Positions 17,611 to 33,549 of a stretch of 64,000 nt of DNA are shown here, piece by piece (position 1 is the stretch's first letter; each line of letters starts with the position of its first letter). The translations under genes were made by a program, and so were the position numbers. The notes under the pieces are model-generated. The model had not been told where the DNA came from and did no database searches. It saw nothing but the letters and a program-made list of their open reading frames with translations. The stretch is from an uncultured Pelagimonas sp. Lineage in GTDB: Bacteria > Pseudomonadota > Alphaproteobacteria > Rhodobacterales > Rhodobacteraceae. The DNA is taken from NCBI GenBank assembly GCA_947499735.1, contig CANMPP010000001.1, positions 620,001 to 684,000 on the forward strand, read 5' to 3'.

Positions 17611-17745
17611 AATTGTGCGTTTTATTTCCGACAAAAATACTTGACATTGCATCGGATGTGACCTTGGTTGCAGGCCTCAGGTCTTCCCTCTTTGGCGAGG
17701 GTTCCCAGCTCTCAAAAACGTTCCCAGAACCAGTAGGATCTCGTG

Positions 17746-19893
17746 ATGACCGAGCATAATCCGCATTCCAACAAGCAACTCAGCGCGCGTGCGGCAACCC
17801 CGCAAGAAGCCCAGATATGGCTGGAACATCAGCAAAGCGAAACCGGTGTCGCACCGATTGTTGAAATCCTAGAACTGCCCGCTGGAACAGATCCAGGGAC
17901 TGTTGCGGCCAGCTTTGTTCAAATGGGCAATGACACACCAGAACTGATAAGATGCTATCAGTTTGATGAAACCGGTGAATTGCTGGTTTATCCCGGACAA
18001 ACATCCGCGCCGTTACATATTCGCTGGGTACAGAATGTATCGGACATCGAAAACATGGCGCTTGATCTGGCGTCGGAACCTTGGGATTTGGCGGAACGTG
18101 GCCCAGTAAGATTGGCCATCCTGTTGGGAAGTAGCACATCGCATCTCGCACTAATTCGCCACCCGATTGCGGTAGATCTACCCAATACTGAATCTTTGTT
18201 CGCTGCACTTGTGCCTCGTTCTAAAAATCAGGCAACGGAAATAGCGCCAAGCACGGATCCAACAGATCGGACTGCGCAAATTATTCTGGATGAATTCCGC
18301 CTTGCCTTAGATGCGCCAGACATGACGGCCGATTGTGATTTCTTTGATTTCGGCGGACATTCTTTGATTGCGACACGCGTGATCGGCCGTCTTGCCGCAC
18401 GTCATGGCATTTCATTGAAGTTCAACGATTTGTTTTCACATACGACGGCAGCCACACTTGCGCCGCTTGCCGAAACCGAAACGGGCCTCATTGACCAGCA
18501 AGCGGGCGATTGGGCTGCCGTGACACCTGGGACATTGCCCGCGCCAGTGGAAACAAGCAGCCGAACACCTTTGTCGCATGCACAGGCCTCTTTGTGGAAA
18601 ATATACTCTGCTCTCGGATTTGGTCCGACATTCAACATCCCCTTTGCATTGCGGTTTCTCGATCCAGTAGATGAAACCGTTTTTGCTGCGGCCTTTCGTG
18701 ATATTCTGGAGCGCCATTCTGCCTTGCGCAGCCGTTTCATCAGCCAAGGCAGCGATATCGTTCAAGACTGCATGCCCATGTCAGAGGTCGATCAGCAGCA
18801 ATGGTTTTGGCATTCAGAAGGAATTCAAGACATAGCGCCGATCCTCGCAGAAGAAGCGGCGTATGATTTTGATCTCGCGCAGGAATTGCCCATTCGGTTG
18901 CGCTTTGTGCGCGATTCCCAAGGGCAGGTGCTATCCTTCCTGTTCCACCACATTGTGCTGGATGAATGGTCGGTGAACTTGATGATGGATGATCTTGCAT
19001 TTGCATACGCCGCTCGTAATAGCGGCAGGGCACCCGTCTGGCCCCAGCCCATCGCACCGTTCCATGATTTTGCCCGCAAGCAGGCCGAGGCAGGGTTTGA
19101 TCAGAAAGCCCTAGATTATTGGGTCGATGCGCTAAAGGATGCATCCCCACCCAAACCTATTCGTGCGAATGCGGCGGCACCATTGCCATCGGCTACCGAT
19201 GCACATGTTGCTGATGGCGGTTGGACAGAGATCATGTTGGACCGCGCGGTTTCAGATGCGCTATATGCCTTGTCAAAAGAATGTTCCGCATCTTTGTTCA
19301 ACACTGTTTACGCAGCGATTTCATGCGCTTTGCAACGTCTTGCAGGTTTGGATGATCTCACAATCGGGACATCTGCATCTGGACGCACGGACCCGGATTA
19401 TTTTGATACGGTGGGGTATTTCACAACTGTAACCGCCCATTCATTGCGCGCGCCGGGCCACATGACCCCTCGGGGATTGATTGCCACTGTGCGTGACATG
19501 ATAAACGGGTCATTGCCGCATTGTGAAATTCCAATTGATTTGGTTGAAGATGCCCTTTCGGGTGGCACAGCCCCTTTGGGCGAACATATGTTCGAGGTCT
19601 TCATCCAAATCCATGCACAAAACAAATTGAACGGCACATTCGAAGGCCCGCATGGCCCGATCAGGTTCCGACAAGTCGATCCCGAAAAGAGCGAATCCGT
19701 GCTTGGTTTGCAATTTGAGGTCGTCGAAGATGTGATCGAGGGGGCAAAACGACTGCGTATGATGATGAGCTATCGGAGTGCACATTATTCCGCAGATGAT
19801 GTGACAGCGCTTGTTGCGGCTGTCAAAAACACCTGCGCAGCCTTTGCCAGAACCAATGCTGTTGACCGTACTCTTTCAGAGCTATTGCCCTGA
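17746..19893 (+). CDS. NRPS with relic condensation lobe, carrier domain and condensation domain (VibF C-terminal part)
   Basis: About 715 residues. Residues 20 to 150 resemble only the N-terminal lobe of a condensation domain (QIWLEHQQ, PWDLAERGPVRLAILL, HLALIRHPIAVDL). The HHxxxD motif is altered to HP at 139 and 140, and the second lobe is missing. A normal carrier domain follows with FGGHSLIATRV, Ser206 being the attachment site. Then comes a full condensation domain with HHIVLDEWS (His401, His402, Asp406). This order matches the C1-PCP-C2 end of VibF, where C1 is reported to be dispensable. It should receive threonine from the A domain of the other polypeptide in trans. ATG 17746 follows AGGA; a GTG lies one codon earlier. 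Confidence 0.88.
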   Translation: MTEHNPHSNKQLSARAATPQEAQIWLEHQQSETGVAPIVEILELPAGTDPGTVAASFVQMGNDTPELIRCYQFDETGELLVYPGQTSAPLHIRWVQNVSDIENMALDLASEPWDLAERGPVRLAILLGSSTSHLALIRHPIAVDLPNTESLFAALVPRSKNQATEIAPSTDPTDRTAQIILDEFRLALDAPDMTADCDFFDFGGHSLIATRVIGRLAARHGISLKFNDLFSHTTAATLAPLAETETGLIDQQAGDWAAVTPGTLPAPVETSSRTPLSHAQASLWKIYSALGFGPTFNIPFALRFLDPVDETVFAAAFRDILERHSALRSRFISQGSDIVQDCMPMSEVDQQQWFWHSEGIQDIAPILAEEAAYDFDLAQELPIRLRFVRDSQGQVLSFLFHHIVLDEWSVNLMMDDLAFAYAARNSGRAPVWPQPIAPFHDFARKQAEAGFDQKALDYWVDALKDASPPKPIRANAAAPLPSATDAHVADGGWTEIMLDRAVSDALYALSKECSASLFNTVYAAISCALQRLAGLDDLTIGTSASGRTDPDYFDTVGYFTTVTAHSLRAPGHMTPRGLIATVRDMINGSLPHCEIPIDLVEDALSGGTAPLGEHMFEVFIQIHAQNKLNGTFEGPHGPIRFRQVDPEKSESVLGLQFEVVEDVIEGAKRLRMMMSYRSAHYSADDVTALVAAVKNTCAAFARTNAVDRTLSELLP

Positions 19894-19926
19894 TCTAACC
19901 ACATTTTTAGCGCGTCAGAGGCCCAT

Positions 19927-20745
19927 GTGACCACCACTTCTGCCCCAAGCCAGCCATCCGAGACACGATCAACATCACGCCTAAAGGCCCAAGGGCTGTC
20001 GCTGAATTATCCTGGTAAGGCCGTCAGTTCTGGTATGTCATTGGAAATCAAAGATGGCACTTTTTCCGTTATTATTGGCCCCAATGGATGTGGGAAATCG
20101 ACCTTGTTGCGCGGTTTATGCAACCTATTGCCACCCAGTGCGGGTCACGTTCTTTTGGATGGTCGGGACATTGCGCGCCTTCCATCCCGCGAATTGGCCA
20201 AGCAAGTTGGGCTGCTACCACAAAGTGCACAAGCCCCCTCTGGGATCACCGTGGCGGATTTGGTGTCGCGTGGGCGTTACCCACATCAAGGACCTTTTCG
20301 CCAATATAGTGTCGATGATGAGCGCATCGTTGCACGGTCTATGAAGGCCGCTGGCATTCAAGACTTAGCGCATCAAAGTGTTGAGTCTCTATCGGGGGGG
20401 CAACGTCAACGCGTTTGGGTTGCATTGGTCCTTGCACAAGAAACCCCAATTCTGTTGCTGGATGAACCAACAACTTATCTAGATATCGCGCATCAGCTGG
20501 AATTGCTGTCCCTTCTGGGCAATCTCAATCGGGAAGGTGGGCGTACAATTGTGGCTGTGTTGCACGATCTTAATCAGGCCTGTCGGTATGCTGATCATTT
20601 GATTGTTATGAAGGATGGTGGCGTCGTCACCGAAGGATCGCCTGCTGACCTTATGACATCGGAATTGCTGCAACAGGTCTTTGGACTGGACGCTATTATC
20701 ATTGACGATCCGATCAGTCACACCCCGTTGATCGTGCCTAAGTGA
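19927..20745 (+). CDS. fepC: Ferric siderophore ABC transporter ATPase
   Basis: A 272-residue ATPase for the FepBDG importer. Walker A is GPNGCGKST, the Q-loop region PQSAQAPSG, the signature LSGGQRQRVW and Walker B ILLLDEPTTYLD, followed by the switch His in VLHDLNQA. This is the FepC/FecE subfamily. The start is GTG at 19927 with AGAGG 8 nt upstream; no in-frame ATG precedes the first conserved block. Its stop codon directly abuts the stop codon of the convergent transporter gene (TGA then TCA), leaving no room for a terminator. Confidence 0.93.
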   Translation: MTTTSAPSQPSETRSTSRLKAQGLSLNYPGKAVSSGMSLEIKDGTFSVIIGPNGCGKSTLLRGLCNLLPPSAGHVLLDGRDIARLPSRELAKQVGLLPQSAQAPSGITVADLVSRGRYPHQGPFRQYSVDDERIVARSMKAAGIQDLAHQSVESLSGGQRQRVWVALVLAQETPILLLDEPTTYLDIAHQLELLSLLGNLNREGGRTIVAVLHDLNQACRYADHLIVMKDGGVVTEGSPADLMTSELLQQVFGLDAIIIDDPISHTPLIVPK

Positions 20746-22539
20746 TCATTGCGCCACTGACCACTTTTTCACGGCCCCCTGTGCAGCCCACATGCGGGCA
20801 TAACGGCCTGTTTCGGCGTGCAGATCGGTGTGTTTTCCTGACTGAACCAGGGACCCGTCCTCAATCACCAGAATCTGATCAGCGCCAACAATTGTGGACA
20901 AACGATGCGCTATCACAATGACGGTTTTGCTTGCGATTAAGGCATCAAGTGCACGTTGGACGGCAAGTTCGCTTTCAGTATCAAGCGCCGCGGTGGGTTC
21001 ATCCAGAATGATGATTGGCGCATCCTTTAGCAAAGCCCGCGCAATCGAAATACGCTGACGTTCCCCACCAGACAAGCGTCCTCCGATTTCCCCCAATGGC
21101 GTTTGCCACCCGTCTGGCAAACGTTCGATAAAATCCAAACACTGTGCAGCCCTAGCCGCTGCGCGGACCTCTTCATCGGATGCTTCGGGGCGGCCCATGC
21201 GAATATTCGCAAGCACGCTGTCATTCAGCAGATACACGTCCTGAAACACGACAGACAGCAGGCTGTTTAACTGATCTGCTGGGATGTTACGCAAATCCAC
21301 GCCCCCAATTTTAACGCTACCTTGTTGCGGATCAAAATGTCGCAACAACAATCGGGTCAATGTTGTTTTGCCACAACCCGATGGGCCAACCAGTGCAGTC
21401 AGTGAATGTTCCGGCAAATCAGCGTTAAAGTTGGATATCGCTGTTGTATCGGACTGCGCATAGGCAAAATCGACATTGTCGAACTGAATGCTAAATTCAG
21501 ACGGCATCTGCATCGGATGCGATTGCTGTAGGGGCTTGGTGGCCATCAATGCGCCAATTCGTTCAAGCGCCGCTTCCATAACCTCAAGCATTGCCGTGTA
21601 TAGGATAAACGTCGACAAAGGTTCAGACAGTCGCACAACGATCACAAAAATCGCGGCAAGGGTGGCTGGGTGTAAGCTGCCTGAAACCACCAGCCAGACG
21701 CCGATCCCCAACACGATCACCAAGCCCAGTTCGACGATGCTGGCCACGATAATGTTGGGTTTGGCGCCTTTGCGATGGCCAAAGGCCTGAATCGCTTCAA
21801 GTTTGTGAAATGTTTGGGACAACCGTTCCGCTTTTTCGCCCGCCCGGCCAGCGGCCCGTAAAATCGCAAGACCTTGTGTATATTCCAGCACATCTGCGCT
21901 GGCATCTTGATGTGCCTGACCCAGAATGCGTTTCCCACGTCCCAGCGCGGGACGTCGCCATCGATATAGCGGAACAATCGTTGGGAAAATCAGCAGCAGT
22001 AACAACCCCATACGCCAGTCAAACAAGGCTATACCAAGGGCCGCGCAAAACGGCGTCACGATGGCCGTGAACAGCAGGTTCAAGACCGTCAAGGCGTACA
22101 GCAAGTTTTCATCAACATTGCCGAGCACCATCGAATTCAGCTCGCCGGCACGTTTATTCTGCAGCTGTTCCAATGGAATTTCGCGCAACTTTGCGCCCAA
22201 CTGCCCGCGCAGCCGCCATGTGGCACGCACCATACGGCCATCAAAATCAAATCCTTGGGCAAACCACCGCAAGGCGGATGCGGCGGCCATAAGGGCCGCC
22301 ATCAAGCCGAACCAATATAGTGCATGGCCTATATCAGGGTTGACGATAGCTGCGGTGAACAGGGGGGCGATCACAGCCAATCCAAAACCTTGCAATGCGG
22401 CGGCCAAAATTAATCCCGCCAACGAACGCCGCAACCCTGGGGCCGCTTCCGGCCCCACACTTTGGGCCAGCTGACGGAATGTCGTTAGAAAAGAGGTCGC
22501 GCTTTGCTTGCGCGGCGGCGTATTGGTCTCAGTTGTCAT
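20746..22539 (-). CDS. ABC transporter with fused permease and ATPase, YbtQ/IrtB-like
   Basis: A 597-residue half-transporter: six membrane helices (about residues 35 to 310) then an ATPase with GPSGCGKTT, LSGGERQRISIARALL, IIILDEPTAALD and IAHRLST. It pairs with the next gene, which it overlaps by 4 bp. Heterodimers of this exporter-fold kind in siderophore clusters (YbtPQ, IrtAB) are known to import ferric siderophores or help release their iron, despite the fold. Here it may take up the ferric catecholate or export the free siderophore. Sequence alone does not decide direction. Confidence 0.88.
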   Translation of the reverse strand: MTTETNTPPRKQSATSFLTTFRQLAQSVGPEAAPGLRRSLAGLILAAALQGFGLAVIAPLFTAAIVNPDIGHALYWFGLMAALMAAASALRWFAQGFDFDGRMVRATWRLRGQLGAKLREIPLEQLQNKRAGELNSMVLGNVDENLLYALTVLNLLFTAIVTPFCAALGIALFDWRMGLLLLLIFPTIVPLYRWRRPALGRGKRILGQAHQDASADVLEYTQGLAILRAAGRAGEKAERLSQTFHKLEAIQAFGHRKGAKPNIIVASIVELGLVIVLGIGVWLVVSGSLHPATLAAIFVIVVRLSEPLSTFILYTAMLEVMEAALERIGALMATKPLQQSHPMQMPSEFSIQFDNVDFAYAQSDTTAISNFNADLPEHSLTALVGPSGCGKTTLTRLLLRHFDPQQGSVKIGGVDLRNIPADQLNSLLSVVFQDVYLLNDSVLANIRMGRPEASDEEVRAAARAAQCLDFIERLPDGWQTPLGEIGGRLSGGERQRISIARALLKDAPIIILDEPTAALDTESELAVQRALDALIASKTVIVIAHRLSTIVGADQILVIEDGSLVQSGKHTDLHAETGRYARMWAAQGAVKKWSVAQ

Positions 22540-24395
22540 TGAGCAGGCTCCTCTTGCGCGATTGTTCTGTCTGCGTCAGTTCCACCCAAGGACCAGTTTT
22601 GTGCCTGTTCGTAATTGTTCCACAGGCGTGCATAAATCCCTTGTTTGGCGACTAAATCATCATGATCACCGCGTTCTGAAATCTGTCCCTTGTCAAAAAC
22701 CAAAATCTGATCCGCGTCTCGGATCGTGGCCAAACGATGTGCCACCATGATGACTGTTCGCCCCTTCATCAACGCAGATAGAGCAGCGATTAATTCAGCT
22801 TCATTTTCGGGATCGGAAAAAGCTGTGGCTTCATCGAGGACCAAAATAGGACGGCTTTGCAAAAGCGCGCGGGCAATAGAGATCCGTTGCCGTTGTCCGC
22901 CTGATAAAAACACACCGCGTTCCCCAACAGGCGTGTCGTACCCTTGGGGGAGATCGCAAATGAAGTCATGTGCTTGCGCGGCAGTTGCAGCGGCAATGAC
23001 CGCTTCATCGCTTGCCTCAGGGTTTCCAATGCGAATATTTTCCGCAATTGAATCAGCAAACAAAAAGCTTTCCTGAAAAACAAATGCAACTTGTTCCATC
23101 AGCTGGTCAGACGTCATATCGCGAATGTCGTGGCCGCCCAACATAATGCGGCCTGATGTGACGTCCCAAAACCGTGGGATCAAACGCGCAACCGTCGTCT
23201 TGCCGGCCCCTGATGGTCCCACGAGCGCGGTCACGCTGCCCTCTGGCACCGAAAAACTGATATCGCGCAAGGCTGGATCTAAATCTGCTCCGTATGAGAA
23301 AGTCACATTATCAAACTGCAAAGCGGGTGCTGATGGATCCAAACCTAACCGAGACTGCGGTTCGACTGTGGAGGGGTGCTGCAGTTCAGGGGCGTTCATG
23401 ATCTCTTCAATGCGGATAACACTCAGCGTGACTTTTTCAATCATGTGACGCAGCATCATCATAGGCATCATGGCTTCTGCCATGCCTGTGCAAATCAAAA
23501 GCACACCTAACCAACGCGATACAGACAGATCATCCAAGGATGTCAGCCAGAGCCCCGTTCCCAAGACAAGCGTCAAAGTCGGCATCGGGCTCAGCACGAG
23601 CCAGGAAAATCGTGCAGGAAACCCAGCGGCCCGGTACCAGTCTAACATCACGGTCAAATAGCCATCTAGCGCATCCTGATAGCGACCAAAGCTGGTTTTC
23701 CCGCTGTCAAAATTGCGCACAACAGGCATAGCTTGAACGTATTCCACCACTGCTGCACTGACTTTTTCCCGTGCCGTATTGTATTTGCGCACCATATCCC
23801 GGCGCTGCTTTTGGGCCCTTGTCAAAATGCTATAGCCCAATGCTAAGATCAGCAATGCGACCAGCGCCAACCGCCAATCTAAGATGATCAACAGGCCCAA
23901 TGTCACAACAGGTGTGACATAGGCCCGCGCGTAAAGTGGCGTGCTGTCCGCCACAAACACATGCAGTGCTTTCACATCGTCATGAATAACCTTGGCCAGC
24001 GCGCCAGCACCTTGGGTTTCCACATATCCAAGCGACACTCGCGCCAACCGTTCAGCCAAACCAATGCGCAAAATACGCTCTAGTCGAAATGCGGCATAAT
24101 GGGCCTGATTAAACGCGCCAAGTCGCGCAACATAGGCCGCTACGGTACAAATCGCGGCCCCAATAAACCACAGCCAAGGAACAGTTTCGGGATGTGCCAG
24201 AAGGTGCTGAATAACCATCATAAGCTGCAACATCACGGCCAGGCCAAACAAAGCTGAACCAGCGGAAATCGCCATGGCCAGCTTAATCTGTGTTTGAACT
24301 GGCTTCAGAATACGCCAAGGAGACGCGCGTTTTTTGCGGATCGGTGGAGCAGAGTTTTCAGGAGAATCCTCGTTCAGATCAGTATCGACCGCCAT
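22536..24395 (-). CDS. ABC transporter with fused permease and ATPase, YbtP/IrtA-like
   Basis: The 619-residue partner of the preceding half-transporter. A charged N terminus of about 40 residues precedes six membrane helices, then the ATPase with GPSGAGKTT, LSGGQRQRISIARALL, ILVLDEATAFSD and VAHRLATI. The SFSYGADLDPALRDISF entry is typical of the IrtA/YbtP group. Mycobacterial IrtA carries an extra siderophore-reductase domain at its N terminus; here it is absent. Both genes are read from a promoter in the 24396 to 24721 gap. Confidence 0.88.
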   Translation of the reverse strand: MAVDTDLNEDSPENSAPPIRKKRASPWRILKPVQTQIKLAMAISAGSALFGLAVMLQLMMVIQHLLAHPETVPWLWFIGAAICTVAAYVARLGAFNQAHYAAFRLERILRIGLAERLARVSLGYVETQGAGALAKVIHDDVKALHVFVADSTPLYARAYVTPVVTLGLLIILDWRLALVALLILALGYSILTRAQKQRRDMVRKYNTAREKVSAAVVEYVQAMPVVRNFDSGKTSFGRYQDALDGYLTVMLDWYRAAGFPARFSWLVLSPMPTLTLVLGTGLWLTSLDDLSVSRWLGVLLICTGMAEAMMPMMMLRHMIEKVTLSVIRIEEIMNAPELQHPSTVEPQSRLGLDPSAPALQFDNVTFSYGADLDPALRDISFSVPEGSVTALVGPSGAGKTTVARLIPRFWDVTSGRIMLGGHDIRDMTSDQLMEQVAFVFQESFLFADSIAENIRIGNPEASDEAVIAAATAAQAHDFICDLPQGYDTPVGERGVFLSGGQRQRISIARALLQSRPILVLDEATAFSDPENEAELIAALSALMKGRTVIMVAHRLATIRDADQILVFDKGQISERGDHDDLVAKQGIYARLWNNYEQAQNWSLGGTDADRTIAQEEPAQ

Positions 24396-24721: not shown

Positions 24722-25555
24722 TTAAGGCGCAAGTGTCCATTCTAGGATTTTGATCAAGCGCTTGCGCGTTAACCTTACAGCGACACTGCATTTCTGATCT
24801 GAAGACGAAGCAACGTGAATTCCGGCAATCGTTAGACCGAAAATTTCATCAAATTTCATAACAAGGCTTGAACCATTTCCACCCATGAACGTGTCGATCT
24901 TATGGGTGATGAGGCCGTAATCTTCAGTTGTAACCGCTCCATGTGCGGTCCACATGGTGCCTTTGGGCTTATCACTGGAATAACCAGATAGGCTTGCTTG
25001 ATTTTCTTCCAATTGCTCGTCTGTCGGCACACCCATGGGCAGGCTTGGATTTACGACTGGTTTCTTTAGACGAACAACCGCGAAGTCATTTTCGTAATGC
25101 GAAAAACCTTCGATTGCACCGTCATTTTCCAAAGGGCTTGGTAGGTTTAAATCTTTGTAGGCGCGCGGAAAGAAAAATTTTGATGCCGCAACATAGCCAT
25201 ACGGCATCTTGTCGCCATTGCGGGCGGGAATGAAAAAGACTTGGGTCGCTTGGCCACCGATATCTGCGCCATAGACATTATGCGCCGCTGTCAAAACATG
25301 GGTTTCATCAATCAAAGTGGCTGTGCTTGTATATGTCTTGCCATTTGGAAATTTAACGACAAGCTGTCCGATCGCATTGAAAGGGTATTGTGTTGTGTCT
25401 GTCACCTGGCTGCGCGTGTCAGGGGGAAACACAATATCCATAGTGTCATTCAGAAAATCGCAAATATGTGCCCGAGTTTCGGCGCTGTGTTGTCTTTTTA
25501 CGTTTGTAAGGTCACACACCACGTCTTCGATCTGTAATTGTCTCAGGTTATTCAT
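24722..25555 (-). CDS. Trypsin/V8-like serine protease
   Basis: A chymotrypsin-fold protease of 277 residues when started at ATG 25555, which has a strong site GAAGGGGAAAG just upstream; the frame continues to 25747 without such a site. Catalytic residues are visible: His92 in VLTAAHNVYG, Asp157 in ENDFAVVRL and probably Ser229 in GGNGSSL, where most relatives have GNSGSP. The AAHNV and NDFAV contexts are those of glutamyl endopeptidase/V8-type enzymes. No signal peptide is seen with this start, so it may act in the cytosol. It is divergent from the regulator, haloperoxidase-like and subtilase genes and may belong with them. Confidence 0.82.
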   Translation of the reverse strand: MNNLRQLQIEDVVCDLTNVKRQHSAETRAHICDFLNDTMDIVFPPDTRSQVTDTTQYPFNAIGQLVVKFPNGKTYTSTATLIDETHVLTAAHNVYGADIGGQATQVFFIPARNGDKMPYGYVAASKFFFPRAYKDLNLPSPLENDGAIEGFSHYENDFAVVRLKKPVVNPSLPMGVPTDEQLEENQASLSGYSSDKPKGTMWTAHGAVTTEDYGLITHKIDTFMGGNGSSLVMKFDEIFGLTIAGIHVASSSDQKCSVAVRLTRKRLIKILEWTLAP

Positions 25556-25895
25556 CTTCTTTCCCCTTCCCAAACCCATAACGGGTTTGGCAAATCTTGT
25601 GTCTCGGTTCCAAAAATGCAGCTTTCGCGCTGGATCTTCTGACCTCGGGATTTTGCGGAGAACGTCGCAAACCAGAGCGAGCATCTTTGATGTCACTATC
25701 ATGTCGAAGGCCACAGAGATTGTCCTGAAACCTATCCGAAATTTCACAAAGCGTCTTTTTGCAATCCTTCGGTGAAAAGGTTTTTTGGCGTATCGGTTTT
25801 GATTGATTTTGGATAAATGTATTTATTTATCATATGGTTATGTGGTTTTCCCACTGCGCCATACACGTGCCTGACAGACTCGATAGCCCTACGAT

Positions 25896-25907
25896 CCTTA
25901 CGTAAGG
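25896..25907. promoter_or_regulatory. Perfect 12 bp palindrome CCTTACGTAAGG
   Basis: A self-complementary site in the divergent region between the protease and the regulator, 30 bp from a second and longer palindrome. A homodimeric DNA-binding protein is the natural reader. Confidence 0.4.
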
Positions 25908-25937
25908 GTAAGAATGTCGATTTTTGCAGGGCCTAAA

Positions 25938-25953
25938 GGTTAACGCGTTAACC
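25938..25953. promoter_or_regulatory. Perfect 16 bp palindrome GGTTAACGCGTTAACC
   Basis: A 16 bp perfect palindrome followed on the plus strand by ATTTTTT. It may be an operator. As RNA it could also fold into a 5 bp hairpin with a T-run, so a weak terminator is the alternative. Confidence 0.45.
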
Positions 25954-26467
25954 ATTTTTTATCGAAAACCTTCGGCGAGATTTCGTTTTTTTTTCAGGTC
26001 GCGGCGAAAACTTTCTGGCATCCTTGGTTTTAAGAAATACGAAATGGGGAGCCATAGGATTGGCACGGCGGAATAGACAACTGGATCAATCACTGATCTC
26101 GGAGCTGAATGGGGCGGGGATGGCGCCCAATTCTGTGTCTGGTCCACGCAGCGCCATACATCGCCGTTTTGGTCAAAGAGAAAAGAGGCATTTGCGACAG
26201 GTCCGTGAACCGTTTCGTCCCAATTCTGCTAGGCTTCGGTCTAGGGTTGTATCTGGGGCGCAGGCAAAATGTTCACGTGCTTCCCTATCTCGAGTTCATT
26301 TTTTTTGCTATTGCCCAGTTGATGACGTGAGTAGCTCCATTTCTGTAAAAAGACATGGATCATTAAGCCGAATCTTGTACCGACGCTCAGAAATATCTGT
26401 TTTTTGTGATCGTAGCGTGTTGGTATCTATTCGGAACTTGCCATCGGCGGGGGAGGCCTACATTTCT

Positions 26468-28045
26468 GTGTCTAAGCAGAGTGAGCCGGGCGTTGTATCG
26501 CTCGGGGATGCATATTTTGACCTTGGCACTAGTCGTCTTTTAACCAAGGATGGCGACGAAATCGTGTTGCGTCTACAATCTGCACGTGTGCTGCAAATGC
26601 TTGCGGAAAATTGCGGGCAGTTGGTGGCGCGTGATGATTTGGTTGACCATGTCTGGCCGAATGCATTCGTAACAGACGATAGCTTGACGCAATGTATTGC
26701 GGATATACGTAAAGCACTTGGTGATACCAATCGGGCGCTTGTGAAAACTCTGCCAAAGCGGGGGTATCTGTTAGATGGGCAGATGTCTGCTGGCGCTGGC
26801 CAACAGGTCACAGAAAAAGGCGATGATGTTCTCGCGGCCAGGTTAGACCCAAGGGATGTTTTGCCAACGATTGCAGTTTTTCCCGTTCAGTCCGTGACTG
26901 GTACAGGGGGGGATGCGCTTCGTATGTTCATAGCTGATGAAGTTGTTTCATCGCTTGGCCGATCCAAAGATCTTAATGTCATCTCTCGCATGTCAACGGT
27001 TCAATTCGCGAATGCAGAGCAGGATAAACATCTTTTGGGTCGTGATCTGAATGCGGATTTTGTTGTATCTGGGCATGTCCAAACGATTTCAGATAAAGCC
27101 CATATTTTCATTGAATTTTTTGACACGCAAAGCAAGCTGGTTCTCTGGTCGGATCGCTTTCAGTTGTCCGTTGAACAGGTTTTGGAAAACGGAGATTGGG
27201 CTGAGCATGTCGTGTCCCATATCCGTAACGCCATAATGGCAAATGAAGTTGCGCGCGTGCGCACATTGCCATTGGAAAACCTTAAACTCTACAGCGTTTT
27301 GCATGGTGCTGTGGGCTTGATGCACAGGCTTTCACCGAAGGAATTTAACGAAGCAAAGGCGCTGCTTGACTATTTGGTCGAACAGGCACCGCATAATCCT
27401 GCACCTTTGGCATGGCTCGCACGTTGGCATGTTTTAAAGGCTGTGCAGGGGTGGGCGGTGGACATTCAAAAAGAAGCTCGATTGGCAGTGGATTGCGCCC
27501 GGCGTTCTTTGGACATCGATCCAGATAATTCTTTGGCGCTTGCAAGCCTTGGGTTTGTTATGACCAACTTGGTGCATGACTTTGATGAAGCGTATTTCTA
27601 CTACGATGCTGCCCTTAGCATTAATCCAAATGATGCGACGGCAAGAGCTTTGCGCGGCATGTTGCAGGCCTTTTGCGATAAAGCTGATGTGGGTTTGCGC
27701 GACAACGAGCGCGCACTGCATTTGACGCCACGTGATCCTATTCGCTTTTTGTATCTAAATTTGGCGTCTGGGACCAATTTGTCAGCGGGCAATTTTGAAC
27801 GTGCGGTCGCTTTGGCGAAAGAGTCGTTGAGGCTCAATCGAACACATGTGTCGACATTGCGCACTTTGGCCGCTGCCCAAGAGGGCGCAGGTCATCACCA
27901 AGAGGCGCAACATACGGTGCGTGATCTTATGCATTTACAACCAGGATTGCGCGTGAGCACCTGGCTTGCCAATTCACCCAGCCGTTCTTTTGACAACGGT
28001 AAACGATTTGCAGATCTGCTCAAAAACGCCGGTGTTCCCGGGTAA
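26468..28045 (+). CDS. Winged-helix transcriptional regulator with TolB-like and TPR domains (CadC/adenylate-cyclase-like layout)
   Basis: About 525 residues from a GTG start with GGGGGAGG 11 nt upstream. Residues 10 to 103 form an OmpR/CadC-type winged helix (LGDAYFDLGTSRLLTKDGDE, LVARDDLVDHVWPNAFVTDDSLTQCI, KTLPKRGYLL). Residues about 125 to 240 are the TolB-like domain (PTIAVFPVQSVTG, LNADFVVSGHV) often found with such regulators. The rest is helical repeats of TPR type (LDIDPDNSLALASLGFV, LSINPNDATARALRGML, LRLNRTHVSTLRTLAA). It has no membrane helix. It precedes the GGY/PAP2 gene by 29 bp and probably controls this locus. The signal sensed is unknown. Confidence 0.8.
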   Translation: MSKQSEPGVVSLGDAYFDLGTSRLLTKDGDEIVLRLQSARVLQMLAENCGQLVARDDLVDHVWPNAFVTDDSLTQCIADIRKALGDTNRALVKTLPKRGYLLDGQMSAGAGQQVTEKGDDVLAARLDPRDVLPTIAVFPVQSVTGTGGDALRMFIADEVVSSLGRSKDLNVISRMSTVQFANAEQDKHLLGRDLNADFVVSGHVQTISDKAHIFIEFFDTQSKLVLWSDRFQLSVEQVLENGDWAEHVVSHIRNAIMANEVARVRTLPLENLKLYSVLHGAVGLMHRLSPKEFNEAKALLDYLVEQAPHNPAPLAWLARWHVLKAVQGWAVDIQKEARLAVDCARRSLDIDPDNSLALASLGFVMTNLVHDFDEAYFYYDAALSINPNDATARALRGMLQAFCDKADVGLRDNERALHLTPRDPIRFLYLNLASGTNLSAGNFERAVALAKESLRLNRTHVSTLRTLAAAQEGAGHHQEAQHTVRDLMHLQPGLRVSTWLANSPSRSFDNGKRFADLLKNAGVPG

Positions 28046-28074
28046 ATTTTGAGCAAAATTAGGAGCTATTTGAT

Positions 28075-29274
28075 ATGAGTATTTTTCCACAAGGCGCTCA
28101 CGGCGGCTACGGAGGTTATGGCGGTTACGGTGGCTATGGCGGTTACGGCGGCTATGGTGGTTACGGCGGCTATGGTGGTTACGGCGGCTATGGCGGTTAC
28201 GGCGCGCCATCTGAAAACCCGGTTTTGGCCGGGGGGCTTATGACGTCACATGATGGCACTACGGGCGCAATTCTGGATCATCCAGCTGAGGTCGTTGCAG
28301 GCGTTGCAAATTCAACAGAGAATTTGCCTAGACTGTCCGCCGCGGTTCGTGCTGCTATTTATCAGGCCGAATTGGCACCTACCATTGATATCATCTATGA
28401 TACAAATACTGTTTTTCCACAGGCGGTTTTGCGACGTCGTGTCAGCGAAAACCCTCTGAAACACACGTTTCAAATGCAAGACATGGTGTCGATGACGGCC
28501 CCGACTATGGATCAGTTCCAGGCGCAAATGGAACAGGTTTGGGGATATTCGCGTATTCGAACAGATCGGGCTGCTGAAATCACAACGCAGGTCTCTATAC
28601 CCGTTCCATATTTTTCAGCGATTGGATTTATGGATGCTGGGCGCACGCCGTACACTTTGGAATTCCTCTTTGCGGCCCTTGCGTTTACGTCTTCTGCTTA
28701 CCAACGCATGAAATATACCTTGGCCGTTAAACGACCAATTGAATTTTCACCTCAACTTCAGCCCATGATCCCAACGCCTACCCATGGTTCTTTGCCCAGC
28801 GGGCACGCGACCGAGGCGTTCTTGATGGCGCGGTTGATCTGGAAATTGCTGCTGCATAGTAAGGCACCGCAATATTGCGACACCGCGCATTGGGGTGAAA
28901 TGTTGATGCGGCTGGCATCCAGAATTGCGACGAACAGAACTGTTGCTGGTGTCCATTTCCCTGTCGACAGTGTCGCGGGCTGCGTATTGGGTCTGACATT
29001 GGCCGAGCACATATATTCATTATGCTGTGGCGGTGCGTGGTGGCAGTCGTCCTTCGTTGGTACGCAATTCGCGCCTGAAGAGGATTTTGATTGGCACAAA
29101 ATTTACAGGGCCGATGGGGACCAAATGAAGACATCGGCTGAATCTTCTGTCGGTCAATGGCTTGTAGGTGAAGAAATGCCGGGTGATCCCGGTGCAAAAC
29201 AATCGCTCGTTTTGTCCTGGCTGTGGTCCAAGGCAGTTGCTGAATGGCAAGACATCACGCCTGAATTTTTGTGA
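28075..29274 (+). CDS. PAP2/vanadium-haloperoxidase-fold protein with N-terminal Gly-Gly-Tyr repeats
   Basis: A 399-residue protein of two parts. Residues 10 to 42 are eleven perfect GGY units. The C-terminal domain has the full active site of the PAP2/vanadium haloperoxidase fold: Lys213 to Arg220-Pro221 (K-x6-RP), PSGH at 241 to 244, and Arg288, His294 and Asp298 (R-x5-H-x3-D). Such enzymes either hydrolyse phosphoesters or, with vanadate bound, oxidise halides. Which applies here is not evident. It has no signal peptide and no clear membrane helices, unlike lipid phosphatases, which favours the soluble haloperoxidase-type group. Strong site TTAGGAG upstream. The next gene, a subtilase, starts 9 bp after its stop. 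Confidence 0.85.
   Translation: MSIFPQGAHGGYGGYGGYGGYGGYGGYGGYGGYGGYGGYGGYGAPSENPVLAGGLMTSHDGTTGAILDHPAEVVAGVANSTENLPRLSAAVRAAIYQAELAPTIDIIYDTNTVFPQAVLRRRVSENPLKHTFQMQDMVSMTAPTMDQFQAQMEQVWGYSRIRTDRAAEITTQVSIPVPYFSAIGFMDAGRTPYTLEFLFAALAFTSSAYQRMKYTLAVKRPIEFSPQLQPMIPTPTHGSLPSGHATEAFLMARLIWKLLLHSKAPQYCDTAHWGEMLMRLASRIATNRTVAGVHFPVDSVAGCVLGLTLAEHIYSLCCGGAWWQSSFVGTQFAPEEDFDWHKIYRADGDQMKTSAESSVGQWLVGEEMPGDPGAKQSLVLSWLWSKAVAEWQDITPEFL
28102..28200 (+). repeat. Eleven tandem 9-bp units encoding Gly-Gly-Tyr
   Basis: Ninety-nine bases made of GGN GGN TAY units in frame within the PAP2-like gene. The third codon positions vary between units (GGC/GGT/GGA, TAC/TAT), so the amino acid pattern is more conserved than the DNA. 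Slippage could still change the copy number. Confidence 0.95.
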
Positions 29275-29283
29275 GGTTGCGCC

Positions 29284-31299
29284 ATGTTAAAATGGACGAC
29301 TTATGAAGGTAATAGTGGTGTGGATGTTTTAGACCAAATCAGCGATTATCGCCTTGGTTTAACATCCGAAACCGATGTGTCACTCGACGAGGCAAACGCA
29401 CGAGACCAGCGATGGTGGTCAGTATTGATTGAATTGGAAAACATTTCGATCAATCAGTTCTGTGCAGAGGTTTCGGCCTACGAAAGTGATCTGCTGATCC
29501 CTGTCGCATACGATCAGGCTGATCGTGAAAAGGTTCTTCCACGGCAGCCCGTGGCGATTTACGCACGCAGGCGGCTGATTAAGGTTCTGAACCAAAACGA
29601 AAACCAGTATCATGTTGCGTCCCTCCAGTTGGGGGCGCTGACACCAATAGATACGTTGTCGTTTGATCCTAAACCGCCACGGCTGAAACCAATAAACGTG
29701 CCCGATGATACGGTTGTGACCGCTGTGGTCGATTTCGGCATCGCAATCGGACATGACTGCTTGCGCAAAGGTCCGACCTCTACGCGTGTCGAATATGCGA
29801 GCATCTTGGGGGCTAAATCTGTTTCTGATGGATCAACTTCGGTTGGGCGCGTATTGGAACGTCGAGAAATCGACCGCCAATTGTCCGATTGGCAATTTAG
29901 CGATTTGCTAGATGAGGACGGCTTCTATCAATCCGTTGGCATCGTCGATTGGAATTCTGATTATGTGTCGCCAGTCGCCATGAACAGTTCCCATGGCACA
30001 TCGGTGGTTAGTCTGGCGGCAGGTATACCGATGCGTGATGCTTGCGAAAACAGACCTGTCATCTGCGTTTCACTACCGGCAGAAATCGTTGAAGATACGA
30101 CAGGCCGTGGTGCATTGCCGACGCTTTATCTGGCGTTCCAAATCCTCTCTCAACAAGCGGCGCGTTTTCGGTGTGAAAACGGCAGCAAACCACCCGTGGT
30201 TTTCAATTTCTCGTTTGGCAATTCGGGGGGGCCGCATGATGGAACCGGGCCATTTTCTTCCTTGTTTGAATATGTCTTTGGCCCGCACAGCCAATGGAAA
30301 GAAACGGATCAAACTGCGTGGCTGACTTTGCCGGCTGGGAACTTGAATCTCAGCAGATTGCACGCCCAGACGAATGCAAAAGACACCCATCTCGACTTGG
30401 TTGTCATGCCTGATGACCAGACCCCGACTTTTGTGGAGATGTGGTTGCCTGTGTCTCCTCCGGGTGCCAATCAACCTTTAACGGAATTTCGCGTTGAAAC
30501 ACCGTCAGGGCAGATGGGTTCTATTCCATCCACTCCTGGCGCGAAATCGTCTCTTGTAGATGATTGTGGACGAGAAATTGCGCGATTGGCATGTCAGCGT
30601 GTGGGTGTTTTGACGGATAGGGTTCTGGTGACGCTATCGATCAGCGCCACAGCAACCTTATCTGGACGAACAACAGAAACGGCACCGCAGGGCGTTTGGG
30701 CGATTGATATCGAACAGCCCGATTGCGAAGCTAGCGGTCCGATTGAAATCTGGATTTTGCGTGATGAAGCTGTGCCAGGATTGGCTCCAAATGTTCGGCA
30801 GTCTTGGTTTGGGAACGAAGACTACAAGCGGTTCGACAAATTTGGCGCGCCTCTGGCTGTGGATCCTCCACACAATCCAAGCCCCGTGCGGCGCTCTGGA
30901 ACGCTGAGCGGATTTGCATGTGGCCCAACACCTGTTGTTGTTGCGTCCTTTACTGAACGCGACGCGGGTCTGTCTGACTATTCGGCGTCAGGTCCGTTGT
31001 CAGCGCGTGCAATCCCACCAGATTTGCCGCGCACCGGCCCGGATCTTGCGGCAAAGGCAGACATCAGCAATGTTGTGCCTGGGGTGTTGGCCGCTGGTTC
31101 GCGCAGTGGATCCTGGTCCCGGATTTCCGGCACCAGCGCGGCATCACCCAAAGTGGCACAGTTGGCAACACAGGAAATCGCTGATTGGCAAGGGTCCGCC
31201 CGTGACTGGGTCACAGCGGTTGTACAACAGCGCCCCTTCTATCTGCGCGATAAGTCAGATGTATATCGCGCCGGTGCAGGTGGTGTGAGAACCGAATAA
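29284..31299 (+). CDS. Subtilisin-family (S8) serine protease
   Basis: A 671-residue subtilase with an intact active site: Asp150 in VTAVVDFGIAIGH, His237 in NSSHGTSVVSLAAG, the oxyanion Asn353 in LPAGN and Ser618 in SGTSAASPKVAQLA. About 145 residues precede the catalytic domain. A 260-residue insertion between Asn353 and Ser618 is beta-rich (EFRVETPSGQMGS, SPVRRSGTLSGFA). There is no signal peptide, so the enzyme seems cytoplasmic or is released by another route. It is translated right after the GGY/PAP2 gene, and the two products probably act together; the repeat tail is an obvious candidate substrate or recognition tag, which is inference. Confidence 0.88.
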   Translation: MLKWTTYEGNSGVDVLDQISDYRLGLTSETDVSLDEANARDQRWWSVLIELENISINQFCAEVSAYESDLLIPVAYDQADREKVLPRQPVAIYARRRLIKVLNQNENQYHVASLQLGALTPIDTLSFDPKPPRLKPINVPDDTVVTAVVDFGIAIGHDCLRKGPTSTRVEYASILGAKSVSDGSTSVGRVLERREIDRQLSDWQFSDLLDEDGFYQSVGIVDWNSDYVSPVAMNSSHGTSVVSLAAGIPMRDACENRPVICVSLPAEIVEDTTGRGALPTLYLAFQILSQQAARFRCENGSKPPVVFNFSFGNSGGPHDGTGPFSSLFEYVFGPHSQWKETDQTAWLTLPAGNLNLSRLHAQTNAKDTHLDLVVMPDDQTPTFVEMWLPVSPPGANQPLTEFRVETPSGQMGSIPSTPGAKSSLVDDCGREIARLACQRVGVLTDRVLVTLSISATATLSGRTTETAPQGVWAIDIEQPDCEASGPIEIWILRDEAVPGLAPNVRQSWFGNEDYKRFDKFGAPLAVDPPHNPSPVRRSGTLSGFACGPTPVVVASFTERDAGLSDYSASGPLSARAIPPDLPRTGPDLAAKADISNVVPGVLAAGSRSGSWSRISGTSAASPKVAQLATQEIADWQGSARDWVTAVVQQRPFYLRDKSDVYRAGAGGVRTE

Positions 31300-31469: not shown

Positions 31470-31581
31470 AACATTCCTATCACCTTCAATTCGCACCCAC
31501 AGCGTCATTACAGCGCTCGCAGGCAGCGATACGTCGCAACCCAAAATCACGATGATACACGACACTTGAGAGGGTTTGGGG

Positions 31582-33549
31582 ATGCAGAAGACACTCTATG
31601 GCGTGCTGTTGGCGACAACAGCCGGTATTTCACCAATTTGGGCGCAAGAAACGCCATTTGAAGCCAATGCAGTATATCTAGGTACGCTGACGCTTTCCAC
31701 AACCAACCCAGAAGATGTTGCGATCAGCACTGACGATTTGGAACAAAGCAATCCTGGCGATTTGCAGGACATCTTCAAAGCCGAGCCAACGATTTCCGTT
31801 GGCAGTTCCATTCCAGCGTCTCAAAAAATTTACGTGAATGGTGTTGAGGAAGTGAACCTTGCGGTTAGCATCGATGGTGCCCGCCAGAACAACCGCATCT
31901 TCCACCACAGTGCGACCACAATTATTGATCCCGACTTGTTGAAAGCGGTACGTGTTGATCCGGGCGTAGCACCTGCGGATGCTGGCCCTGCGGCACTTGC
32001 TGGGGCGATCGCATGGGAAACCAAGGACGTTGCCGACCTTCTTGCTGATGGCGACGCATCCGGCGCGAGCGCGAACCTTGAATTTGACAGCAATGGCTCT
32101 GTCTGGAACCGCAGTGCATCCGCTTATGGTCGCAGCGGCAATTTCGAAGTGCTCGGCTTTATGAAATGGGCAGATGGTGCAGATAATCGTGTCGATGGCG
32201 ATGGCGATGATATTCCCGGTTCAGGTACTAACCTAACAAGCGGTTTGGCAAAAATTGCTTGGGAAGGCCAAAGTGGCGATCGCGTTGAATTCTCGTATGA
32301 AAAAGTAATCGACGACACATATCGTCCATACCGCGCCAACTTGGCAGACCTAACCGGCAGGGACCAAGGCGAGCGCATCTATGACATTGAAAGACAAAAC
32401 ATTGTCTTGACCTATACGGATGAAACACCTTCGGGATTGTGGGATCCGACAATTCGTGTTGCCTATAATGAAACCGAATTGACCAATGCTGAAGAAGAGC
32501 AATTCACATATGGTCGCACAAATAGTTTCAATGCTCTGTTGCAGAACAAATTTTCTTTGGAAAATGGCGATGTAACAGTGGGCTTCGATTATTACCGAAA
32601 CGAAGCGTCACTTGAATATGTTGACTACTCTGGGACTTGGGACAGTCAAGATTTAAGTGAAACACTGATCAACTATGGTGCATTTGCACAGGCACGTTTG
32701 ACACCTGTTGACGGGCTTGATGTTTCCCTTGGCATGCGGGCTGATTTGCAGGACTTTTCGGCGCATGATGAACTTGGCGGTTTCGAAGACTACGATGAAA
32801 CGGTATCCGGTTTCTCTGGCAACATGTCCGCATCTTATGATCTAGGCGATTTCATCACTGTAAGTGCAGGGTATTCCAACGTTTGGGGCGGAATTCAGCT
32901 GGCTGAAAACTATATTATGCACTCTGGATGGGCATATTCTAGCGACGGTTTTGATACCGTGCGGGCAAAAAGCAAATTCCTTGCTGCTGAGATTTTTGCA
33001 GGTGATTTGGCATTCGACGCAAAGGTCTTTGAGACAACCATTAAAGATGCGCGTCTTGCCTCATATCGCGGCGGTCCGAATGTGACTGCTAACTTGCAAA
33101 GCTTGGGTTTCGAAGTGGGTGCGTCTTATAACTGGGGTGCCGGATTTGCACGCCTTGCCTATGCCAACATAGAAACCGAAGTGAATGGTGATGCTGCAGA
33201 TTCCTATTCTGGCCTGTATCTGACAACACCTTTGGGTGAAGAAATTGTCCTGCAAGCTGCACATAGCTTTGATAATCTTGGTCTACGTGTCGGTGGCGAT
33301 GTGCAATGGGTTCTCGAAAACGCAGAAGTCATCGATGATGGGCTTGTCCTGCCAGCCTATTCAGTCGCCAATATTTGGGCTGACTATACACCAGCTGCTA
33401 TGGATAATCTGATCATCCGTGCTGAGATCAATAACCTGTTCGACGAGACCTACGCGGCCCGTGCCACCTATGGTCAAGAGTTTGACAGCGTTGAACCTCT
33501 GTACGAACCTGGCCGTTCCTTCAAGATCAGTGCGACTTACAAATTCTAA
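31582..33549 (+). CDS. TonB-dependent outer-membrane receptor
   Basis: About 655 residues with a signal peptide ending at WAQ. The plug domain has NPGDLQDIFKAEPTISVG, VNGVEEVNLAVSIDGARQNNRIFHH and the block DPDLLKAVRVDPGVAPADAGPAALAGAI, followed by a barrel ending in SFKISATYKF. The plug sequence is like receptors annotated for haem or xenosiderophores, so the ligand is open. The following FatB/CeuE-type importer favours a siderophore. ATG 31582 has GAGAGGG 7 nt upstream; a TTG two codons earlier is less likely. It has its own promoter with an iron-box-like operator and a strong terminator. Confidence 0.88.
   Translation: MQKTLYGVLLATTAGISPIWAQETPFEANAVYLGTLTLSTTNPEDVAISTDDLEQSNPGDLQDIFKAEPTISVGSSIPASQKIYVNGVEEVNLAVSIDGARQNNRIFHHSATTIIDPDLLKAVRVDPGVAPADAGPAALAGAIAWETKDVADLLADGDASGASANLEFDSNGSVWNRSASAYGRSGNFEVLGFMKWADGADNRVDGDGDDIPGSGTNLTSGLAKIAWEGQSGDRVEFSYEKVIDDTYRPYRANLADLTGRDQGERIYDIERQNIVLTYTDETPSGLWDPTIRVAYNETELTNAEEEQFTYGRTNSFNALLQNKFSLENGDVTVGFDYYRNEASLEYVDYSGTWDSQDLSETLINYGAFAQARLTPVDGLDVSLGMRADLQDFSAHDELGGFEDYDETVSGFSGNMSASYDLGDFITVSAGYSNVWGGIQLAENYIMHSGWAYSSDGFDTVRAKSKFLAAEIFAGDLAFDAKVFETTIKDARLASYRGGPNVTANLQSLGFEVGASYNWGAGFARLAYANIETEVNGDAADSYSGLYLTTPLGEEIVLQAAHSFDNLGLRVGGDVQWVLENAEVIDDGLVLPAYSVANIWADYTPAAMDNLIIRAEINNLFDETYAARATYGQEFDSVEPLYEPGRSFKISATYKF

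Follow-up and report, generated by a model that had tools for sequence, protein, structure and literature searches.

The locus and its genes

The window analysed here, a 64,000-nucleotide stretch of DNA from an uncultured Pelagimonas sp., contains four adjacent open reading frames (ORFs) with the Pfam domains Trypsin, Trans_reg_C plus TPR, PAP2 and Peptidase_S8 (Table 1). The first-pass annotation had placed ORFs with these domains at the same positions. The last three genes are called REG, PAP and SUB below. The REG ORF opens at a TTG codon (26024), and a GTG codon (26468) stands directly before the winged-helix (wHTH) domain. The 912-bp control region originally described between REG and the divergent trypsin-like gene has this length only with starts at 25555 and 26468; it is not obtained when REG begins at 26024 or the trypsin-like ORF at 25747. 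Positions 17743-24395 of the window encode an NRPS-like protein, an iron-enterobactin-type ABC ATPase and two ABC exporter ORFs, which likely form a siderophore locus, and a haem/haemoglobin-type TonB receptor is encoded at 31576-33549, 3' of the REG-PAP-SUB cassette.

Table 1. Features of the cassette and the neighbouring protease gene, in window coordinates
Feature	Position	Strand	Description
Trypsin-like serine protease	25747..24722	-	likely ATG start 25555; judged a bystander
REG	26468..28045	+	OmpR/HilA-type winged helix, TolB-like region and six C-terminal TPRs
REG groove codons	T4p12 27668, T5p9 27770, T5p12 27779, T6p6 27863, T6p9 27872, T6p12 27881	+	
REG TPR5-6 and C-terminal cap	27746..28045	+	portion diverging upon array-unit switch
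PAP	28075..29274	+	soluble PAP2 / class A acid-phosphatase-fold enzyme
PAP N-terminal array (GGY)11	28102..28203	+	amino-acid perfect, predicted disordered
SUB	29284..31299	+	leaderless Csp-type subtilase, intact catalytic residues

PAP carries the PAP2 signature KxxxxxxRP - PSGH - SRxxxxxHxxxD in the form of K213..R220P221, P241SGH244 and R288..H294..D298, with N287 in place of serine before R288 in the window protein. Residues K213, R220, S242, H244, R288 and H294 are invariant in 60 homologues. The fold matches 7f17 (Z 18.1 over 200 residues at 2.3 Å) and PhoN (Z 18), whereas the matches to vanadium haloperoxidases are weaker, with Z of about 10-13 compared to about 18 for the acid phosphatases; the vanadate-binding residues of the haloperoxidases are common to PAP2 proteins. 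As modelled, PAP has the fold of the soluble class A acid phosphatases more than that of the vanadium haloperoxidases. Inspection of the PAP N-termini by eye revealed no PhoN/PhoC-type signal peptide, but a few residues followed by the repeat array. The (GGY)11 repeat of the window protein, previously described as its tail, is its N-terminal head (residues 10-43), and the head is predicted to be disordered.

In SUB, the residues D150, H237 and S618 as well as N353 are intact, and the first three are invariant in 40 homologues. The protein has a prodomain and an inserted beta domain, and shares its architecture with the clostridial Csp proteases (CspB, Z 31.3 over 417 residues). No recognisable export signal was seen in SUB by eye. 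With regard to the defence role suggested as a candidate in the first-pass annotation, neither PAP nor the window REG matches a PADLOC family; SUB matches IetS weakly (E 1e-3), and one cyclase-type REG matches PycC (E 5e-8) over the cyclase domain.

Linkage and distribution of the cassette

Of 395 genomes in the family, 115 contain a PAP homologue. At 103 of the 107 strong PAP places, SUB is found no more than 4 kb away (Fisher p about 1e-74, 395 genomes), and PAP is found near 109 of the 118 subtilase places in these genomes. Among 113 distinct loci, SUB is adjacent to PAP in all 113 and REG flanks PAP in 110, being co-directional with it in 88 and divergent in 22. This linkage in other genomes establishes REG, the repeat-bearing PAP2-fold enzyme and the leaderless subtilase as a genuine unit, and confirms the co-occurrence of subtilase and PAP2 protein for which the first-pass annotation had proposed a search. 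The scattered, unlinked homologues that were to count against the unit are not what is seen for these three genes. The trypsin-like gene, which had also been assigned to the unit, was rejected as a member because it is unlinked elsewhere: it gave one weak match in 123 neighbourhoods, and a homologue occurs in 2 of 121 related genomes, one of which is the source genome itself.

The hosts are Alphaproteobacteria and Betaproteobacteria, plus a few loci under other labels. One contig, assigned by its label to Oceanobacillus sp. HTM 045 (L129), equals in length a contig of an alphaproteobacterial genome (G004:C942, L051) and carries a matching cassette, probably owing to mislabelling or contamination. 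The cassette is near-core in one genus (52 of 67 genomes; 39 of 44 good genomes) and patchy in another (33 of 243). Plasmids of Phaeobacter carry it in the order REG-PAP-S8. Two plasmid copies look degraded (L160/L163): in Phaeobacter inhibens M647, REG is split and SUB shortened, and in Parasedimentitalea marina pW43B, PAP and SUB are in pieces. In a distant branch, REG and the array-headed PAP are kept without SUB, and for this reason REG together with PAP looks like the core of the cassette.

No universal fourth gene was found in the neighbourhoods, where ORFs were called mechanically. A Crp/Fnr-type cyclic-nucleotide-binding regulator adjoins the cassette in 10 loci (L123, L130, L134, L136, L137, L139, L143, L144, L145 and L162), and in some of these REG is of the cyclase type. 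Four loci (L050, L053, L071 and L120) have beside the cassette a gene for a protein that looks, by eye, like an animal-type haem peroxidase (PPVFTYxGQFI motif), and H1-like lysine/alanine-rich repeat proteins (AAPAKK) are found just upstream in the Hydrogenophaga-type loci L125, L136 and L138. The source genome has a second, diverged cassette at 685160-690470 of the contig (L054), about 1-6 kb past the window end. Its PAP, some 3 kb outside the window, has a (GAH)13 head and is 35% identical to the window PAP; its own subtilase is convergent and its own REG divergent. A small ORF between this PAP and REG resembles, by eye, a D-Ala-D-Ala carboxypeptidase/peptidoglycan-binding protein.

The repeat head of PAP

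Nearly every PAP opens with a near-perfect repeat of 2-4 residues, the unit of which varies by locus. There are 69 units among 114 distinct arrays, for example GGY, GAH, NAY, SAY, NAL, GGF, TGW, TAM, STQ, GRS, QG, GGAS and SGGM; the SUB-less branch has NR, SR, SK, DAR, NRD, NGGM and others. Repeat runs with a score of at least 12 occur in 104 of the 114 PAP homologues and in 4 of 810 other neighbouring ORFs, which puts the PAP repeats far above chance. A collagen-like head was rejected, as many units lack glycine (NAY, STQ, NHQ), and so was an acceptor array for halogenation or phosphorylation, as many units lack tyrosine, histidine, serine and threonine (GGV, GGA, NAL).

The copies within the arrays are identical in amino-acid sequence in 1007 cases out of 1017. 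They differ by about 0.93 synonymous changes per site and by 0.008 nonsynonymous ones, the latter value being biased low because the runs were chosen for identity, a bias of which the synonymous scrambling is free. Neighbouring copies share codons less often than shuffles do (lag-1 identity 0.277 against 0.366 expected, z = -12.5), and the tyrosine codons of the window (GGY)11 strictly alternate between TAC and TAT. Strains of Phaeobacter differ by whole 9-nt units, having 5, 6 or 7 copies of NSF. The tree of the PAP body requires at least 79 unit changes among its 113 tips, even between proteins that are about 90% identical. Recently switched arrays are sometimes identical at the DNA level (SGGM x7, SGGY), whereas older ones are codon-scrambled. 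Together with the number of switches, this difference between young and old arrays suggests that a new unit can expand as DNA, is then held perfect by protein-level selection even as its DNA copies drift apart synonymously, and eventually gives way to another unit. The array would represent a case of selection holding a protein repeat perfect while the underlying DNA scrambles.

The TPR groove of REG changes with the repeat unit

The evolution of REG was compared in phylogenetically independent pairs of loci that have the same or different units at matched PAP divergence. The groove was taken as positions 2, 5, 6, 9, 12 and 13 of the six TPRs, assigned by hand from the consensus. In the first data set, the divergence of REG is raised in the unit-switched pairs (p = 0.003). 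The effect is retained without the dominant clade (p = 0.008) and after removal of further units (p = 0.022), and the whole-TPR association weakens to p = 0.077 when the most dynamic units are left out. Divergence of the groove is raised as well (p = 0.001), beyond that of the non-groove TPR positions (p = 0.013) and of random column sets (p = 0.003). The identical groove test, repeated on new genomes from two other genera, gave p = 0.001, and p = 0.009 beyond the non-groove positions; a control with helix-A non-groove positions showed no extra effect (0.36). At PAP distances below 0.19 in this second set, groove divergence is at most 0.028 in all eight same-unit pairs and at least 0.056 in all eight switched pairs, without overlap.

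The signal is located in TPR5-6, which exceed TPR1-4 in both sets (MWU p = 0.008 and 6e-6, respectively). The responding positions are T4p12, T5p9, T5p12, T6p6, T6p9 and T6p12. T5p9 changed in 11 of 18 switched pairs compared to 2 of 30 same-unit pairs; the corresponding counts are 10 and 2 for T5p12, 9 and 3 for T6p6, and 9 and 2 for T6p9. In the Hydrogenophaga-like set, the groove signatures go with the unit and not with the PAP tree: SGGM is accompanied by PRCVLE, SGGA and SGGV by NLA/PRAI (NLG in one SGGV), and SGGI and SGGL by TAA/PRTI (TAS in one SGGI). In Microvirga-type loci, GGV and GGI accompany isoleucine or valine at T6p9. A simple size complementarity between bulky units and small groove residues was unsupported, the signs being mixed. 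The groove effect was not clearly replicated in the SUB-less branch, which offers too few close pairs.

The divergence of SUB is not raised in unit-switched independent pairs at matched PAP divergence (p = 0.97), and SUB was therefore rejected as the reader of the unit. By these comparisons, it is REG and not SUB that changes along with the repeat.

Block exchange and probable matching of groove and array

In co-directional loci, the near end of the REG TPR5-6 codons is a median of about 52 bp away from the array. In switched pairs, synonymous divergence is raised in TPR5-6, where non-groove residues are altered too, but TPR1-4 and the body of PAP remain alike. The short spacing and the raised synonymous divergence mean that the association of REG with the array is partly due to block recombination. 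As the synonymous rise is limited to TPR5-6, unit switches often go along with the exchange of a block running from the 3' part of REG into the 5' part of PAP.

Two observations argue for a need of the groove and the array to match as well. First, in non-sister species that have the same unit, the TPR5-6 groove varies little (0-0.08), although synonymous divergence is high. Second, the groove tracks the unit in loci with a divergent REG, where the end of the TPRs is far from the array: between SGD and SSD loci, 4 of 12 TPR5-6 groove residues and 0 of 24 in TPR1-4 have changed, and between SGE loci at 42% PAP divergence, 0 of 12 TPR5-6 groove residues have changed, this control consisting of few independent cases.

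Proposed mechanism

By combining these results, it is possible to describe how the cassette might work. REG and PAP are rather likely to be a cognate receptor-ligand pair, in which the array of PAP docks in the groove of TPRs 4-6 and sets the output of REG. Cognate recognition between groove and array is the best-supported statement of this analysis, and from it we infer that the two bind physically. The disordered head, in which one short unit is repeated about 5-20 times, would dock as an extended periodic peptide in the concave groove. Such a geometry is plausible, since designed helical-repeat proteins bind tripeptide-repeat peptides (PMC10115654). The PAP enzyme, or a peptide from its head, would then set the DNA-binding output of REG or, in those homologues that have a cyclase domain in place of the winged helix, the cyclase output.

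The contact would most likely be intracellular, no export signal having been seen, and the PAP head may hold REG in an inactive state or free REG from it. An intracellular lock is favoured over a secreted signal because the ligand is part of an enzyme that lacks an export signal. SUB, where present, might trim the head of PAP or bring about turnover of the complex. Cross-talk between paralogous or invading cassettes would be prevented by diversification. New units would arise when a single unit expands at the DNA level or when the block from the 3' part of REG to the 5' part of PAP is exchanged. A toxin-antitoxin-like role for the cassette is a further candidate.

Alternative explanations

The array might instead be a multi-copy precursor for peptide signalling of the RRNPP or pherotype kind, where SUB or other proteases free the peptides, which are exported, re-imported and bound by the REG TPRs as a cytoplasmic receptor, so that switching creates new communication groups. 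The presence of many identical copies next to a processing-type subtilase, a receptor groove that changes with the ligand, the exchange of receptor end and ligand as one block, and the logic of RRNPP systems, in which a cytoplasmic HTH plus TPR receptor has an adjacent cognate peptide gene (PMC10075063), are all in line with this explanation. It is nevertheless unlikely, for the ligand is fused to a 350-residue enzyme with an invariant active site, PAP N-termini have no export signal apparent to the eye, no exporter or permease is a conserved neighbour, SUB is absent from one branch, and the unit is identical among the Phaeobacter plasmid strains examined.

PAP might also be a harmful phosphatase that REG neutralises via the head, with SUB triggering activation and the pairs diversifying like toxins and antitoxins. 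The gene order with the putative antitoxin first, the union in a single protein of domains for DNA binding and for partner binding, the occurrence on plasmids, the patchy distribution in the family and the cognate co-diversification would suit such a conflict or addiction module. On the other hand, REG is 550-700 residues long and sometimes a cyclase, the cassette is near-core among the good genomes of one genus, degraded plasmid copies exist, and PADLOC has no family for PAP or the window REG and gives a weak match of SUB to IetS. Such a module is therefore rather improbable.

The first-pass annotation had suggested regulated cleavage or activation, by which the enzyme would be activated when SUB or the trypsin-like protease recognised the repeat and cut it. 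This is hardly to be expected, even though the array is predicted to be disordered, the active-site residues of SUB are invariant and its linkage is tight: SUB shows no raised divergence when the unit changes, it is missing from an entire branch that keeps the array, and the trypsin-like gene is not conserved. At a slightly lower level of likelihood stands homotypic assembly, in which the uniform repeat is a self-assembling or low-complexity module with drifting units and no dedicated reader; it accounts for arrays that are strictly uniform although the unit itself is free to vary, but fails to predict the change of the REG groove with the unit in two data sets and in the divergent loci. Neutral microsatellite slippage in a dispensable N-terminus, which would explain the 9-nt copy-number differences and the DNA-identical young arrays, can practically be dismissed, as it is contradicted by the codon data: the copies are identical as protein even though synonymous change is close to saturation, and neighbouring copies tend not to use the same codons.

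Comparison with known systems

The reading of REG and PAP as a cognate receptor and ligand can be set against several known systems. PAP shares its body fold and active-site residues with the class A acid phosphatases and other PAP2 proteins (7f17, PhoN), but is leaderless, headed by an array, extended by a long additional N-terminal region and linked to REG. SUB has the fold, prodomain and inserted beta domain of the clostridial Csp germination proteases, but occurs outside any sporulation context and is linked to REG and PAP. The domain order of REG is common to the wHTH-TPR regulators of the HilA/CadC type. We know of no HilA/CadC-type regulator that is paired with a peptide-array partner. 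In accord with the original remark that no described system with this gene set was known, no earlier description of the cassette was found in the open-access literature (subscription journals were outside the scope of the search). The sequence comparisons point to an unrecognised, fast-diversifying lock-and-key pair.

RRNPP pairs of Firmicutes consist of an intracellular HTH plus TPR receptor and an adjacent cognate gene for a secreted propeptide of 10-100 residues (PMC10075063). The cassette would have in common with them the adjacency of an HTH-TPR regulator to its cognate peptide-coding gene, peptide binding by the TPRs and matched specificity. The window REG (Trans_reg_C plus TPR) corresponds to such a receptor, although some homologues have a cyclase instead. 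PAP, however, is no small secreted propeptide, its array being fused to the enzyme and without a signal visible by eye. REG and PAP differ from RRNPP pairs also in that they are proteobacterial, the putative ligand is a perfect tandem array on a 350-residue enzyme, the unit differs in almost every lineage, and the output of REG is an OmpR/HilA-type wHTH or a cyclase.

The chances are about even that REG and PAP embody a natural 'repeat reads repeat' code, in which proteobacterial TPR grooves track a changing di-, tri- or tetrapeptide in dozens of cognate pairs spread by array replacement and block exchange, and which would constitute a previously unknown kind of signalling or conflict system, keyed by peptides, outside Firmicutes. 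If true, the cassette would be a cognate, diversifying regulator-enzyme system of Proteobacteria, with insulation, signalling and conflict as candidate roles. It would also provide a large natural collection of matched helical-repeat and peptide-repeat pairs, with at least 69 units and a specificity re-made at least 79 times, from which a readable code of protein-peptide recognition and orthogonal parts for synthetic biology might be derived.

A further parallel is artificial. Superhelical matching allows helical-repeat proteins designed de novo to bind peptides made of tripeptide repeats with high affinity, the groove of a helical repeat facing a tandem tripeptide as proposed here for REG and PAP (PMC10115654). 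The targets of the designed proteins adopt the polyproline II conformation, whereas the putative REG-PAP pairs are natural and evolving, and would extend such recognition to units of two and four residues.
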